A stretch of 64,000 nt of DNA from Ancylobacter mangrovi (GTDB lineage: Bacteria > Pseudomonadota > Alphaproteobacteria > Rhizobiales > Xanthobacteraceae). The notes beneath the pieces were generated by a model. The model worked only from the letters and a program-made list of their open reading frames with translations, did not search any database and was not told where the DNA came from. Positions 13,340 to 34,233 of the stretch are shown piece by piece. Location: NCBI RefSeq assembly GCF_024752355.1, contig NZ_JANTHZ010000001.1, positions 248,001-312,000 on the forward strand, in the 5' to 3' direction. How positions within the stretch are numbered: position 1 is the stretch's first letter; every line of letters starts with the position of its first letter. The position numbers were made by a program, and so were the translations under genes.

Positions 13340-13365
13340 GGAACCTGGACAAGGCAAAGAGCGTT
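13340..13365 (+). promoter_or_regulatory. EcfG/RpoE2-type general stress promoter of hdeD
   Basis: GGAAC at 13340-13344 and CGTT at 13362-13365 are separated by exactly 17 bp, the alphaproteobacterial general-stress sigma (EcfG) consensus. The expected start site is about 35-40 bp before the hdeD ATG. This links the downstream four-gene run to the PhyR-NepR-EcfG response. Confidence 0.72.
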
Positions 13366-13408
13366 GTGCTCGGCCGGCGTGGCGCCAGTCAGATTGAGGT
13401 CGACACCG

Positions 13409-13996
13409 ATGTCCACTCCCAGCGATTCCGTCCCCCAGACGCCGGCCGGCTCCTTCGCGAGTCATCTGAAGGAACTCCACGCCAAATGGGGGTGGTTCGT
13501 CGCCCTCGGCATCATCATGATCATTGCCGGTGTCATCGCGCTCGGCAGCTCCTACGGGCTCCTGCTCGGCACCCTCATCTCCGTCTACTATATCGGCGCG
13601 ATGATGGTGGTCGGCGGCGTCGCGCAGATCTTCCACGCCTTCTCGGTCAAGGGCTGGGGCGGCTTCCTGTTCTGGCTGCTCGACGGCATCCTCTATCTCG
13701 CCGCCGGCGCCCTCGCCTTCGCCCAGCCGGATCTCGCCGCCACCGTGCTCACCCTGCTGCTGGGCGTGGCGCTGATCGTAGGCGGCATCTTCCGCCTGAT
13801 CGCCGCGTTCCAGATGCGCCCGGCGCCCGGCTGGGGCTGGATCCTGTTCTCGGCGGTGATCGCCATCCTGCTCGGCATCGAGATCACCGTGCAGTGGCCG
13901 ATCAATTCCATGTGGATTCTGGGCCTGTTCCTCGGCGTCGATCTTCTTTTCAACGGATTTACGGTGCTGATGCTGGGGCTGGGCCTGAAGAGATGA
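13409..13996 (+). CDS. HdeD family acid-resistance membrane protein
   Basis: The 195-aa integral membrane protein has six predicted helices in three hairpins (WGWFVALGIIMIIAGVIAL, YIGAMMVVGGVAQIF, FLFWLLDGILYLAAGALA, and so on), the DUF308/HdeD pattern. E. coli HdeD supports high-density acid resistance by an unknown mechanism. The ATG at 13409 has GAGGT upstream; earlier in-frame codons lie inside the promoter. Ten bp separate its stop from the opgC start, making it first in an hdeD-opgC-SGNH-SGNH transcript. Confidence 0.85.
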   Translation: MSTPSDSVPQTPAGSFASHLKELHAKWGWFVALGIIMIIAGVIALGSSYGLLLGTLISVYYIGAMMVVGGVAQIFHAFSVKGWGGFLFWLLDGILYLAAGALAFAQPDLAATVLTLLLGVALIVGGIFRLIAAFQMRPAPGWGWILFSAVIAILLGIEITVQWPINSMWILGLFLGVDLLFNGFTVLMLGLGLKR

Positions 13997-14006
13997 GCGA
14001 GACATC

Positions 14007-15236
14007 GTGAGGCAGGGCGTCGTTCCCCGATCGATCCCTTTTGAAAAGCCGGCCGAACCCTCTCCGGGAGGGTTGCGGCCGGCGGCACCGTCGACTTTTG
14101 GCCGCTCGCCCTCCGGGGCGAGCGGTCGGGACCTGCGCCTCGACCTGTTCCGGGGGCTGGCGCTGTGGTTCATCTTCCTGAACCACATCCCGAACAACGT
14201 GGTGAACTGGATCACCAACCGGAATTTCGGCTTCTCCGACGCCACCGAGATCTTCGTCTTCATCTCCGGCTACACCGCCGCCATGGTGTATGGCCGTGAG
14301 CTGGAGCGCTCGGGCATGATCGTCACCTCGGCGCGTATCCTGCGGCGGGCCTGGCAGCTCTACGTCGCCTTCCTGCTGCTGTTCGTCATCTACCTCGCCG
14401 AGATTTCCTACGTCGTCGGCAGCTTCTCCAACCCGCTCTATGCGGAGGAGATGGGCGCGCTGCAGTTCCTAGCCGAGCCGAACGTGGCGCTGGTCGAGGC
14501 GCTGATGCTGAAGTTCCGCCCGGCCAACATGGACGTGCTGCCGCTCTACATCGTGCTGCTGGCCACCTTCCCCGCCGTGCTGTGGGCGCTGAAGCGCCGA
14601 CCCGACCTCACGCTCGGCGCCTCGTTCCTGCTCTGGCTGGCGGCGGGGCACTGGGGCATCAACCTGCCGGCCTATCCGGACGACCGGATGTGGTTCTTCA
14701 ATCCCTTCGCCTGGCAGTTCCTGTTCACCTTCGGCGGCTGGTGCGGGCTCGGCGGCAGCGACCGGCTCGCGGGGCTGGTGCATTCGCGCGTCGTGCTGGC
14801 GCTGGCGACGGTCTATCTGCTGGTTTCGCTGCTTGTGGTGGTGAGCTGGTGGTGGTCGCCGCTCGAAGGGCTGGTGCCGGAATCGGTCGGCGAAATCATC
14901 TATCCGATCAGCAAGACCGACCTCGCGCCGCTGCGCCTGCTGCATTTCCTCGCCCTCGCCGTGGTGGTGGTGAAGCTGGTGCCGGTCGACCTGCCGGCGC
15001 TGCGCTCGATCTGGCTGCGGCCGATGATCCTGTGCGGCCAGCACTCGCTGGAGATCTTCTGCTTCGGCGTGTTCCTGTCCTTCGCGGCGCATTTCGTGCT
15101 CAACGAGGTCACCGGGACGCTCGCCATGCAGTTCGCGCTCAGCGGAATCGGCATCGTTCTAATGATTTCTCTTTCCGCGATGCTGTCGTGGTATGGTCGC
15201 ATCGAGCGCGAGATTGCCGCGCGGAGACATCGCTGA
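14007..15236 (+). CDS. opgC: OpgC family membrane acyl/succinyltransferase
   Basis: The 409-aa polytopic protein (about ten helices) is of the OpgC family, which transfers succinyl groups to osmoregulated periplasmic glucans. The diagnostic start RDLRLDLFRGLALWFIFLNH begins at residue 41, followed by IPNNVVNWIT and GFSDATEIFVFISGYTAA. Before it lie 40 Pro/Ser-rich residues encoded by two strong palindromes; GTG 14007 is the first in-frame start and no good start exists close to the domain. Downstream SGNH genes suggest a relay in which OpgC moves acyl groups across the membrane. Substrate glycan not known; no opgG/H in the window. Confidence 0.87.
   Translation: MRQGVVPRSIPFEKPAEPSPGGLRPAAPSTFGRSPSGASGRDLRLDLFRGLALWFIFLNHIPNNVVNWITNRNFGFSDATEIFVFISGYTAAMVYGRELERSGMIVTSARILRRAWQLYVAFLLLFVIYLAEISYVVGSFSNPLYAEEMGALQFLAEPNVALVEALMLKFRPANMDVLPLYIVLLATFPAVLWALKRRPDLTLGASFLLWLAAGHWGINLPAYPDDRMWFFNPFAWQFLFTFGGWCGLGGSDRLAGLVHSRVVLALATVYLLVSLLVVVSWWWSPLEGLVPESVGEIIYPISKTDLAPLRLLHFLALAVVVVKLVPVDLPALRSIWLRPMILCGQHSLEIFCFGVFLSFAAHFVLNEVTGTLAMQFALSGIGIVLMISLSAMLSWYGRIEREIAARRHR
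14048..14125. repeat. Two tandem strong palindromes inside the 5' end of opgC
   Basis: The first hairpin pairs 14048-14062 with 14068-14083 (15 bp, one bulged G, 5-nt loop). The second pairs 14102-14110 with 14117-14125 (9 bp perfect, 6-nt loop). Both fall in the non-conserved leader codons of opgC. They look like an intergenic repeat element absorbed into the reading frame, or a translational attenuator. Confidence 0.6.
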
Positions 15237-15250
15237 ACGCGCGGTTCACT

Positions 15251-16174
15251 GTGAAACGCTGGAAGCTGGGTGGAGTTCTCGCGCTGAGCCTGACCCTGAC
15301 GGGCGGCTCGGTCGCGTATGCGGCCAAGGAGAAGGTCTGCGCGGCGCCCTCTGCGCTGACCCAGGCCGGGTTCGCCCTGCCGCGTCTCGCCAAGGCTCTC
15401 AGCGGCAAGCTGCCCGCCGGCGCCGACAAGACCGTGAGCGCGGACAAGTCGCTCGTCGCCGACAAGGCGTCCGCCGGCGCCTCCCTCGACGGCAAATCTC
15501 TCTCCGAAAAGCCGCTCGCCGAAAAGGCGCTGGCGGAAAAAGCGCTTGCCGAAGGTCCGCCGACCTCGATCCTGGTGCTCAACAGCGCCACCCCGAAGAA
15601 GAAGGCGTCCAAGCCGGGCGCCGAGAAGGACACGACGCCGCGCAGCTTCCCGAGCTTCATCGAGGAGCGGCTGCGCGAGCGCTATCCCGACCGCAACATC
15701 GTGCTCACCACGCAGAACCGGCCCCGCGCCACCGCGCAGGCGATCCTCGCCGGGCTGCCCAAGCTGCTCGAGCAGACGCGCCCCGCACTGATGATCTGGC
15801 AGACCGGCACCTATGACGCCATCCTCGGCGCCGACACCGCCGAATTCTCGACGGCGGTGGAGACCGGCATCGCGCTCGCCCACGCCGCGGGAGCGGACGT
15901 GCTGATCGTCAGCCCGCAATACTCGCCGCGCACCGCCTTCGCCTTCGACGTCGCGCCCTACAACAACGCCCTGCGCTGGGCGACGCGCACGGCCCGCGTG
16001 CCGTTCTTCGACCGCTACGACGTGATGCAGTTCTGGGACGAGGAAGGCATTTTCGACTTCGACCTGTCGCGCCCCTCGCCCTCGATGTTCGAGGACGTGC
16101 ATCGCTGCATCGGACGGCTTATGGTGGGCATGATCGTCGACGGCGTCGGCATGCGAACGCTCGGCGCCCGCTGA
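15251..16174 (+). CDS. Exported divergent SGNH-hydrolase-like protein
   Basis: The 307-aa protein starts at GTG 15251, 14 bp after opgC, with a signal peptide (MKRWKLGGVLALSLTLTGGS, cleavage near AYAA). Residues about 57-102 are a charged Ala/Lys/Asp/Leu/Ser linker containing near-repeats of ADKS and AEKAL. The rest aligns with the next gene's SGNH fold, but the catalytic blocks are altered. Block I reads LNSATP instead of a GDS-like motif, block III has IWQTGTYDA without the usual Asn, and block V reads FEDVH with Glu in place of Asp. It may be a degenerate esterase or a binding partner for OpgC. Confidence 0.7.
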   Translation: MKRWKLGGVLALSLTLTGGSVAYAAKEKVCAAPSALTQAGFALPRLAKALSGKLPAGADKTVSADKSLVADKASAGASLDGKSLSEKPLAEKALAEKALAEGPPTSILVLNSATPKKKASKPGAEKDTTPRSFPSFIEERLRERYPDRNIVLTTQNRPRATAQAILAGLPKLLEQTRPALMIWQTGTYDAILGADTAEFSTAVETGIALAHAAGADVLIVSPQYSPRTAFAFDVAPYNNALRWATRTARVPFFDRYDVMQFWDEEGIFDFDLSRPSPSMFEDVHRCIGRLMVGMIVDGVGMRTLGAR

Positions 16175-16204
16175 GCCCGACGGAAGGAGGCACGGACCGA
16201 CCAC

Positions 16205-17092
16205 ATGCGCCGCTCCCGCCTCCCCGCCCCCGCCCGACATCCCGCTCCCGTCATCCGCCTCGCCGCCGGCCTCGCGCTCGGCCTGGGGCTGCTGGGCACG
16301 CCGGCGCGCGCCGCCGGCCCGCTGCCGATCGCCTGCCCGGCGGTCGGCACCCACATGAAGCTCGCCTCCCCGCTCGCCCGCACCGCCGCCCGGCTGCGCG
16401 CCGGCGAGCCGGTGGTGATCGTCGCCTTCGGCTCCTCGTCCACCGCCGGCGCCGGGGCCACCTCGCCTGAGGCGAGCTATCCGAGCCGGCTGCAGGCGAC
16501 GCTGCGCGAGCGCTTCCCGCAGGCGCGCATCGCGGTCCTCAACCGCGGCGTCAACGGGCAGGACCTGCCGGAGATGCTGAAGCGCTTCGACCGCGACGTC
16601 GCGCCGCTCAAGCCGACGCTGGTGCTGTGGCAGGCCGGGGTCAACGCGCTGTTCCGCGCCAACGGCCTCGCCAATGCGGACGCCCAATGGCACGAGGCGA
16701 TCGCCCGGGTGCGGGCCATCGACGCCGACCTCGTGCTGATCGACCCACAATATGCCCCGCGCGTGCTCGGCGACGCCGATAGCGGGCCGATGGTGAAGCT
16801 GATCGACGACATCGCCCGCGAGGAAGGGGTGGACGTCTATCACCGCTTCGCGCTGATGCGCGGCTGGCACGAGAGCGCCGGCATGGCGTTCGACGCCTTC
16901 CTGTGGAAGGACAAGTTCCACATGAACGACTGGGGCTACAACTGCTTCGCCCAGGATCTCGGCGAGGCGATGGTCGCCAATATCGACGCCCAGCAGCGCT
17001 CGGCCGACGTTTCGCCGGGCGTGACCGTGCCCGTCACCCTGTCGCATCCCGCCACGACGAACGCGCTGCTCGGGGCCGACCCGCGGCCCTGA
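16205..17092 (+). CDS. Exported SGNH/GDSL hydrolase
   Basis: The 295-aa protein has a signal peptide (cleavage near ARA/AGP) and intact SGNH blocks: FGSSSTAGAG (nucleophile Ser near 78), RGVNGQDL, WQAGVNALF with Asn147, and the Asp/His pair in KDKFHMNDWGY. Such enzymes are esterases or O-acyltransferases acting on periplasmic glycans. A strong GGAAGGAGG SD precedes the ATG, 30 bp after the divergent SGNH gene. As last gene behind opgC it plausibly trims or transfers acyl groups on the same glycan. Confidence 0.82.
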   Translation: MRRSRLPAPARHPAPVIRLAAGLALGLGLLGTPARAAGPLPIACPAVGTHMKLASPLARTAARLRAGEPVVIVAFGSSSTAGAGATSPEASYPSRLQATLRERFPQARIAVLNRGVNGQDLPEMLKRFDRDVAPLKPTLVLWQAGVNALFRANGLANADAQWHEAIARVRAIDADLVLIDPQYAPRVLGDADSGPMVKLIDDIAREEGVDVYHRFALMRGWHESAGMAFDAFLWKDKFHMNDWGYNCFAQDLGEAMVANIDAQQRSADVSPGVTVPVTLSHPATTNALLGADPRP

Positions 17093-34002: not shown

Positions 34003-34027
34003 GGAACCGGAACGCGCCTGTGCCGTT
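34003..34027 (+). promoter_or_regulatory. EcfG-type general stress promoter of the DUF1328 gene
   Basis: GGAAC (34003-34007), 16-bp spacer, CGTT (34024-34027): a full match to the EcfG consensus, 26 bp before the ATG of the small membrane protein gene. A second GGAAC at 34009 has no partner at correct spacing. Confidence 0.72.
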
Positions 34028-34053
34028 GACGGCGCAACACTGCGGGGTTGGCC

Positions 34054-34233
34054 ATGTTAAAATACGCCGTCATCTTCCTCGTCATCTCGCTCGTCGCCGG
34101 CGCCATCGGCTTCACCGGCATCTCCGCTGCGGCGCGGCGCATCTCGATGATCCTGTTCGGGCTGTTCTTCCTCGGCTTCCTGCTGCTGGTCGGCCTCGCC
34201 ATGCTGGTGGACCAGGCGATGACGACGCCCTGA
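34054..34233 (+). CDS. DUF1328 (UPF0391/YtjA-like) small membrane protein
   Basis: The 59-aa protein (MLKYAVIFLVISLVAGAIGF start) has two hydrophobic helices and the GxTGISAAARRISMILFGLFF core of the DUF1328 family. Function is unknown. The ATG at 34054 follows CGGGG; an upstream in-frame TTG at 34048 adds two residues. The perfect EcfG promoter just upstream suggests it belongs to the general stress regulon. Confidence 0.85.
   Translation: MLKYAVIFLVISLVAGAIGFTGISAAARRISMILFGLFFLGFLLLVGLAMLVDQAMTTP

Follow-up and report, generated by a model that had tools for sequence, protein, structure and literature searches.

A candidate envelope acyl-modification module in Ancylobacter mangrovi: OpgC with one degenerate and one complete SGNH-fold protein

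We analyzed a 64,000-nucleotide stretch of the Ancylobacter mangrovi genome (assembly GCF_024752355.1, contig NZ_JANTHZ010000001.1, positions 248,001 to 312,000), hereafter the window, with a focus on four genes between positions 13340 and 17092: an hdeD-like gene, the membrane acyltransferase gene opgC, and two genes for exported SGNH-fold proteins, designated sgnh1 and sgnh2. The host genome comprises 4.91 Mb in 22 contigs, and its closest named relatives are Ancylobacter. A preliminary description of this DNA had reported a tightly packed four-gene run, with gaps of 10, 14, and 30 bp, behind the promoter motif GGAAC-N17-CGTT, and the list of open reading frames together with the Pfam matches confirmed this arrangement. 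The features of the locus are as follows.

13340..13365, + strand: EcfG-type promoter motif GGAAC-N17-CGTT, beginning 69 nt ahead of the hdeD start codon; motif in 17/17 loci of the Ancylobacter clade
13409..13996, + strand: hdeD-like gene for a DUF308 membrane protein, the clade-specific first gene (Pfam PF03729, 1.7e-22)
14007..15236, + strand: opgC, membrane acyltransferase of the TmAT superfamily (PF10129 OpgC_C, 1.1e-135; PF01757, 4.8e-9)
14424..14447, + strand: OpgC codons 140-147, loop F-S-N-P-L-Y-A-E between predicted transmembrane helices 3 and 4 (TM3-TM4; topology from hydropathy), proposed SGNH1 docking site
15251..16174, + strand: sgnh1, exported SGNH-fold protein without the catalytic Ser, Asn, Asp, and His, a proposed adaptor (pseudoenzyme) (PF25182 NonGDSL, 7.2e-69)
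15500..15553, + strand: 15-bp tandem repeat, 3.6 copies, in the sgnh1 N-terminal linker
16205..17092, + strand: sgnh2, exported SGNH-fold protein with the full catalytic set, the proposed active acyl-handling enzyme (PF25182 NonGDSL, 8.3e-44)
16436..16438, + strand: codon of the SGNH2 catalytic Ser78
16910..16921, + strand: SGNH2 Asp236-His239 codons (DxxH, block V)

A scan of genome contigs for OpgC returned 564 relatives, of which the best 80 were kept as named loci, a chosen set. At least one SGNH gene was found at 79 of these 80 loci, and at 74 opgC was followed by two. Six named loci lacked the second SGNH gene; the contig ends right there in L051, L061, L071, and L082 but not in L068 and L072. 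The hdeD gene preceded opgC at 18 of the 80 loci, 16 belonging to the Ancylobacter clade and two to Azorhizobium, and on this count it was rejected as a core member of the module. The condition named earlier as refuting, a four-gene order not conserved in relatives, gave a mixed outcome: the order held for 17/17 clade loci (the window and L007-L022) and for both Azorhizobium loci, but its hdeD part did not extend to the remaining named loci. Since hdeD is present at 18/80 loci and opgC-SGNH-SGNH at 74/80, the putative stress link is a clade-specific addition: the predicted stress promoter arrived with hdeD, and the older and wider core is opgC-SGNH-SGNH.

Co-occurrence was also examined at the level of whole genomes. 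Among 150 genomes sampled from the order, OpgC_C was found in 75 (69 with a strong match), PF25182 over its cut-off in 30, and OpgG in 80; strong OpgC_C matches occurred in 30/30 of the PF25182 genomes versus 39/120 of the others, with genome lists compiled by hand. In a sample of 192 genomes from the class, the corresponding counts were 20/21 and 19/171, the exception being genome G201. From this co-occurrence, the PF25182 SGNH protein needs OpgC, and the functional link between OpgC and SGNH that had been put forward for the window is supported. An SGNH gene lies directly 3' of an opgC in 19 of the 30 PF25182 genomes of the order sample, as counted by eye. Three genomes of one family (G032, G103, and G130; 6.9-8.0 Mb) carry four to five OpgC paralogues each, one of which has SGNH neighbors.

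The two SGNH proteins were compared at the five positions that make up the catalytic set, namely Ser, block II Gly, block III Asn, Asp, and His. Where SGNH2 of the window has S-G-N-D-H, SGNH1 has A-N-Y-P-S. SGNH2 carries blocks I, II, III, and V of the SGNH/GDSL family with Ser, Gly, Asn, and Asp-x-x-His, and SGNH1 does not have these catalytic residues. The fold of SGNH1 is nevertheless that of the family, as its AlphaFold2 model (predicted local distance difference test, pLDDT, 84.7) matches TesA (9e-7; TM-score 0.70 by target). The preliminary description had named two exported SGNH proteins, and a signal-peptide-like N-terminal stretch was recognized by eye in both, but the two are not alike, SGNH1 being catalytically degenerate. 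At the protein level, the 15-bp repeat in sgnh1 is translated into an LAEKA-like repeat within the N-terminal linker.

This asymmetry recurs in the pairs of SGNH genes beside opgC. The catalytic set was complete in 0/82 proximal copies and in 81/83 distal copies (L094 is the same stretch as L012, so the pairs include one genome twice). The two incomplete distal copies are that of L055, which is cut by the contig end, and the proximal copy of the second opgC in the tandem locus L086. In proximal copies the Ser position was occupied by Gly, Ala, Arg, or another residue in 73/82, the Asn was kept in 1/82, and the His in 0/82. In SGNH2, S78, G115, N147, D236, and H239 were invariant in 71 aligned sequences; the SGNH alignments omit 3 of 79 (A1) and 4 of 74 (A2) named copies, these being near duplicates and one cut copy. 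The set was complete in 19/19 copies unlinked to opgC and in 5/16 single copies adjacent to it. Of the genomes with a degenerate adjacent copy, 14/14 in the order sample and 11/12 in the class sample also carried a complete one. All six order-sample genomes whose single adjacent copy is degenerate (G145, G120, G017, G092, G076, and G106) had a complete copy elsewhere, as did the genomes of L068, L072, and L082. At L086 (305-5198), two tandem opgC genes are each followed by a degenerate SGNH gene, with one complete SGNH gene at the end.

The expectation of a degenerate adjacent copy with a complete second copy was written down before 20 stretches of 18 further genomes were fetched, and 17 of the 18 genomes agreed with it. 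All six pairs consisted of a degenerate proximal and a complete distal SGNH; at the three loci with an SGNH gene on either side of opgC, the downstream copy was degenerate and the upstream copy complete; both genomes in which one copy is adjacent and another distant fitted; and single copies were complete in 6/7. On the SGNH tree the loss of catalytic residues takes four changes, three of them forced by well-supported branches, and we infer that the direction was loss rather than gain. On these data the OpgC-adjacent SGNH decayed several times beside an intact second copy, which suggests that the dead enzyme acts as an adaptor. In three loci of family f25 (L159, L161, and L162), the complete distal SGNH branches among the SGNH2 proteins of the family to which the window belongs, and the OpgC and the proximal SGNH do not; horizontal transfer of the distal gene is possible.

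OpgC of the window scored 452.7 bits against the OpgC_C cut-off of 21.4, over residues 1-356 of 358. The opgC start codon is GTG as listed in the table of open reading frames, and the true start may differ. No solved structure matching OpgC by sequence was found. The residues D46 and R49 (DxxR, TM1) and H60 were kept in 100% of 93 SGNH-linked OpgC proteins of the main clade and of seven opgG/H-linked ones; excerpts of the literature describe the DxxR motif and the TM1 His as residues of the TmAT superfamily. On the OpgC tree (made by a quick method, with some long branches), the SGNH-linked proteins occupy two positions, away from most of the opgG/H-linked ones.

A difference between OpgC proteins was found in the TM3-TM4 loop, which is predicted to be periplasmic from hydropathy and from the N-in topology that excerpts of the literature report for AT3 proteins. 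In the lineage with SGNH pairs, residues 140-147 read F-x-N-P-L-Y-x-E, with Asn and Pro in 86/86, Tyr in 83/86, and Glu in 86/86 sequences. Twelve close OpgC paralogues without SGNH had the Asn in two, the Tyr in three, and the Glu in one. Over 193 OpgC proteins, Asn-Pro was present in 102/106 beside a degenerate SGNH, in 1/9 beside a complete one, and in 3/78 beside none, with a contig end truncating L051, one of the last three; the motif was found in the same data that supplied most of the 193 proteins, the class-sample part having been counted later. The idea that Tyr145 of the loop corresponds to the acyl-carrying Tyr of OatA was dropped, as the position is Tyr in 83 and Phe in three of the 86 sequences and Phe in most further loops.

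The promoter motif GGAAC-N16/17-CGTT is the standard EcfG target according to excerpts of PMC7083833. The bare motif with a spacer of 16-18 occurs at two sites in the window versus 0.84 expected; across the genome, the motif with a spacer of 16-17 occurs at 91 sites versus 24 for the reversed pattern. It stands above chance because it is conserved across the clade, not because it is rare: it lies 53-69 nt ahead of hdeD in 17/17 Ancylobacter-clade loci, with a spacer of 16 in 11 and of 17 in six, 14 distinct spacer sequences, and varying flanks. A chance match was rejected on these grounds, and a stress promoter ahead of hdeD is likely. The genome also encodes PhyR, NepR, and EcfG side by side with a DUF1328 gene (L005, C16:182688-185789). 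Three GGAAC-N16/17-CGTT sites were found in the 3.1 kb of this stress locus versus 0.05 expected, one immediately 5' of phyR, one about 45 bp 5' of the DUF1328 gene, and one inside phyR on the opposite strand. Conservation and these same-genome controls support the stress-sigma-type promoter predicted earlier for the run.

Outside the clade the picture differs. The motif was found within 500 bp upstream of opgC at 1/64 loci versus 0.53 expected, and at neither of the two Azorhizobium four-gene loci; EcfG control of the module everywhere was accordingly rejected. The predicted promoter belongs to hdeD and the Ancylobacter clade, not to the wider opgC module. The HdeD protein of the window scored 49 bits versus the 189 required by the NCBIfam HdeD model. 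A second perfect EcfG-type site in the window, at 34003-34027 (+), lies directly 5' of a 61-amino-acid open reading frame at 34048-34233 (+), which, compared by eye, looks like the DUF1328 protein encoded at the stress locus and is likely a further stress gene. An Rfam search of the window gave zero matches. A paper linking OpgC with EcfG, with HdeD, or, outside other contexts, with the general stress response was not found in the open-licence literature searched.

These observations are compatible with an envelope acyl-modification module, placed under the general stress response in the Ancylobacter clade, in which SGNH2 would be the transferase and SGNH1 an adaptor, a reading to which we assign an even chance. 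Under stress, PhyR would release EcfG from NepR and EcfG would transcribe hdeD-opgC-sgnh1-sgnh2, a step with strong sequence evidence for its promoter. OpgC, which probably moves acyl groups through the inner membrane, would by analogy with its family take an acyl group (succinyl by family precedent) from cytoplasmic acyl-CoA to the periplasmic side. SGNH1 would dock on the TM3-TM4 Asn-Pro loop as an adaptor or glycan holder, as its residue loss and the co-occurrence of the loop suggest. SGNH2 would handle the acyl group through an acyl-serine, most likely transferring it to an acceptor and less likely trimming it. The acceptor might most plausibly be an osmoregulated periplasmic glucan made by OpgG/OpgH, which are encoded elsewhere in the genome. 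Excerpts of PMC12148441 describe AT3 proteins as binding acyl-CoA inside and presenting the acyl group outside, and report that in OatA a Tyr relays it to the Ser of the SGNH domain; the simplest model would be an OatA-like route in trans, in which SGNH2 would be the Ser enzyme and SGNH1 the adaptor. A fuller version, which we offer tentatively and at somewhat less than an even chance, is a trans-acting TmAT-SGNH system with a dedicated pseudoenzyme, in which SGNH1 on the Asn-Pro loop would hand the acyl group or the glycan to the active SGNH transferase, with repeated decay of the OpgC-adjacent SGNH after a second one had appeared and a stress switch in Ancylobacter.

A number of observations weigh against this module as proposed. 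The block II Gly of SGNH2 is kept in 82/83 copies, and SGNH2 does not have the signature of PatB/OatA-type acyltransferases, in which this Gly is replaced by Ser or Asn according to excerpts of PMC12148441. Of the 50 solved folds listed for its AlphaFold2 model (pLDDT 86.4), the nearest are carbohydrate esterases, for example CEX, acetylxylan esterases, and Ape1, and no PatB or OatA entry is named among its 43 sequence-profile matches. Because of the block II Gly and the esterase-like nearest folds, we weighed beside the transferase module an arrangement in which OpgC needs no partner to acylate the acceptor, the acyl groups are trimmed or turned over by SGNH2 acting as an O-acyl esterase, and SGNH1 is a regulatory or glycan-binding partner of SGNH2, much like PatA-PatB-Ape1 minus PatB. 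Excerpts of PMC9558356 describe OpgC and MdoC as stand-alone in function, and 78 of the 193 OpgC proteins have no adjacent SGNH. However, an esterase has no need of a degenerate copy adjacent to OpgC, and the arrangement leaves the differing OpgC loop beside degenerate SGNH unexplained; we consider it rather unlikely. SGNH1 also keeps His284, Ser225, Asp189, and Arg227 as invariant or near-invariant residues and, given these polar residues, may have a rearranged active site. It was suggested at the outset that two SGNH enzymes relay the acyl group, which as stated is not supported, since SGNH1 has lost its catalytic residues. A relay like that of AlgI-AlgJ-AlgX, from OpgC to a rearranged SGNH1 and on to SGNH2 and the glycan with both as enzymes, would share with alginate acetylation one membrane acyltransferase and two SGNH proteins; yet excerpts of PMC4148444 report Asp-His-Ser triads in both AlgJ and AlgX, whereas no proximal copy here is complete and the loss recurs in several lineages, making such a relay very improbable. 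Exceptions to the rule of an intact second copy also count against the adaptor: two draft genomes (G341 and G342; loci L061 and L071), in which the contig ends directly after a lone degenerate proximal copy, have no complete copy over the cut-off; and G252 (L206), a draft in 350 contigs, has a lone degenerate SGNH beside opgC and no complete copy over the cut-off. For the loop, the class sample taken alone gave Asn-Pro in 8/12 versus 0/4, the four misses (L200, L201, L204, and L205) keeping part of the loop, and a tree-aware test, with too few independent events to draw on, found 2.7 of five independent pairs as expected and 0.0 against (median p 0.25, not significant). The link between the Asn-Pro loop and degenerate SGNH is suggestive once kinship is allowed for.

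Alternatives to the proposed acceptor and to the stress link are compatible with both the transferase and the esterase readings. In place of periplasmic glucan, the acceptor might be a different glycan of the envelope or a lipid (candidates include lipopolysaccharide, exopolysaccharide, and hopanoid). Seven OpgC loci of the order sample lie near opgG and/or opgH, and none has an SGNH gene; glycan genes flanking the module were found neither in the window nor in the compared loci; and OpgG is missing from 3/30 PF25182 genomes. Neither opgG nor opgH is present beside the module in the window, so there is no genetic link to these genes there; the genome has both OpgG and OpgH, the single OpgG on a different contig than the module. 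In loci outside Ancylobacter, housekeeping genes flank the module, identified by eye as argD, argF, and hslO upstream and metZ and dcd downstream (43-52 of 62 loci). The module occupies a fixed place among housekeeping genes in most of L023-L086 (except L037 and L045) and lies elsewhere in Ancylobacter. Against another acceptor, OpgG is more frequent in PF25182 genomes, at 27/30 versus 53/120 of the others without correction for kinship, a suggestive co-occurrence. With an adjacent SGNH, OpgG was found in 18/19 genomes versus 37/50 of the other OpgC genomes, which is not significant (p 0.09; Fisher values ignore kinship). To our knowledge, every characterized OpgC acts on periplasmic glucans. 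A different acceptor is a real possibility, though the less probable one. The promoter, in turn, could serve hdeD only, with opgC and the SGNH genes expressed from elsewhere and no stress link. Genes of the hdeD type are plausible stress genes on their own, and outside the clade opgC occurs without hdeD and without the motif. In the clade, however, hdeD and opgC are at most 10 bp apart or overlap in 17/17 loci (with mechanically called starts), and no sigma-70-like site or terminator above chance was found in the region in a search limited to the sigma-70 promoter type. We regard a promoter confined to hdeD as unlikely.

We compared the proposed module, in which SGNH2 would act as the transferase and SGNH1 as the adaptor, with known systems as excerpts of the literature describe them. 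It shares the PF10129/TmAT membrane acyltransferase family with OpgC/MdoC, the periplasmic glucan succinyltransferases of Rhodobacter sphaeroides, Escherichia coli, and Dickeya; those are described as stand-alone, in R. sphaeroides within an opgGIH-opgC operon, whereas in the present locus opgC is followed by two SGNH genes and opgG/opgH are found elsewhere. A separately encoded SGNH partner of OpgC is not described in excerpts of the open-licence papers PMC12423673, PMC9558356, PMC9833829, and PMC2824669. The AT3-SGNH fusions OatA and OafB likewise combine a TmAT-fold membrane part with an SGNH part, but in the present case the genes are separate, the membrane protein belongs to the OpgC branch, and an additional, degenerate SGNH protein is encoded. 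Gram-negative peptidoglycan O-acetylation by PatA-PatB-Ape1 also employs a membrane acyltransferase and two separately encoded SGNH proteins; PatA, however, is an unrelated MBOAT, PatB has Ser/Asn in block II where SGNH2 has Gly, and PatB and Ape1 are both active. One membrane protein with two periplasmic SGNH-fold proteins is likewise found in AlgI-AlgJ-AlgX-AlgF for alginate acetylation and in WssHIFG for cellulose, but AlgI is an MBOAT and AlgJ and AlgX keep their catalytic triads in a circularly permuted form, whereas of the two SGNH proteins here one is degenerate and neither departs from the usual block order. The regulatory side corresponds to the EcfG/PhyR/NepR regulon, with the same promoter GGAAC-N16/17-CGTT and a full regulatory locus in the genome. 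On our best reading, the module would carry out acyl modification in trans through OpgC, a pseudo-SGNH adaptor, and an active SGNH, the acceptor probably being periplasmic glucan.

Excerpts of PMC13231049 report opgC as present in a drying-resistant soybean Bradyrhizobium and absent in a sensitive strain; this two-strain comparison, in which the OpgC meant is not stated, points the same way as the stress link. In Ancylobacter, acylation of envelope glycans would be coupled by the stress promoter to the general stress response. The OpgC-SGNH set gives a hint of the way in which stand-alone membrane acyltransferases cooperate with separate partners, and the pseudoenzyme system, if true, would provide the partner that published work has called for in stand-alone acyltransferases of the AT3 type. 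Present in many Alphaproteobacteria, opgC-SGNH-SGNH names candidate partners of such enzymes and makes the question testable.

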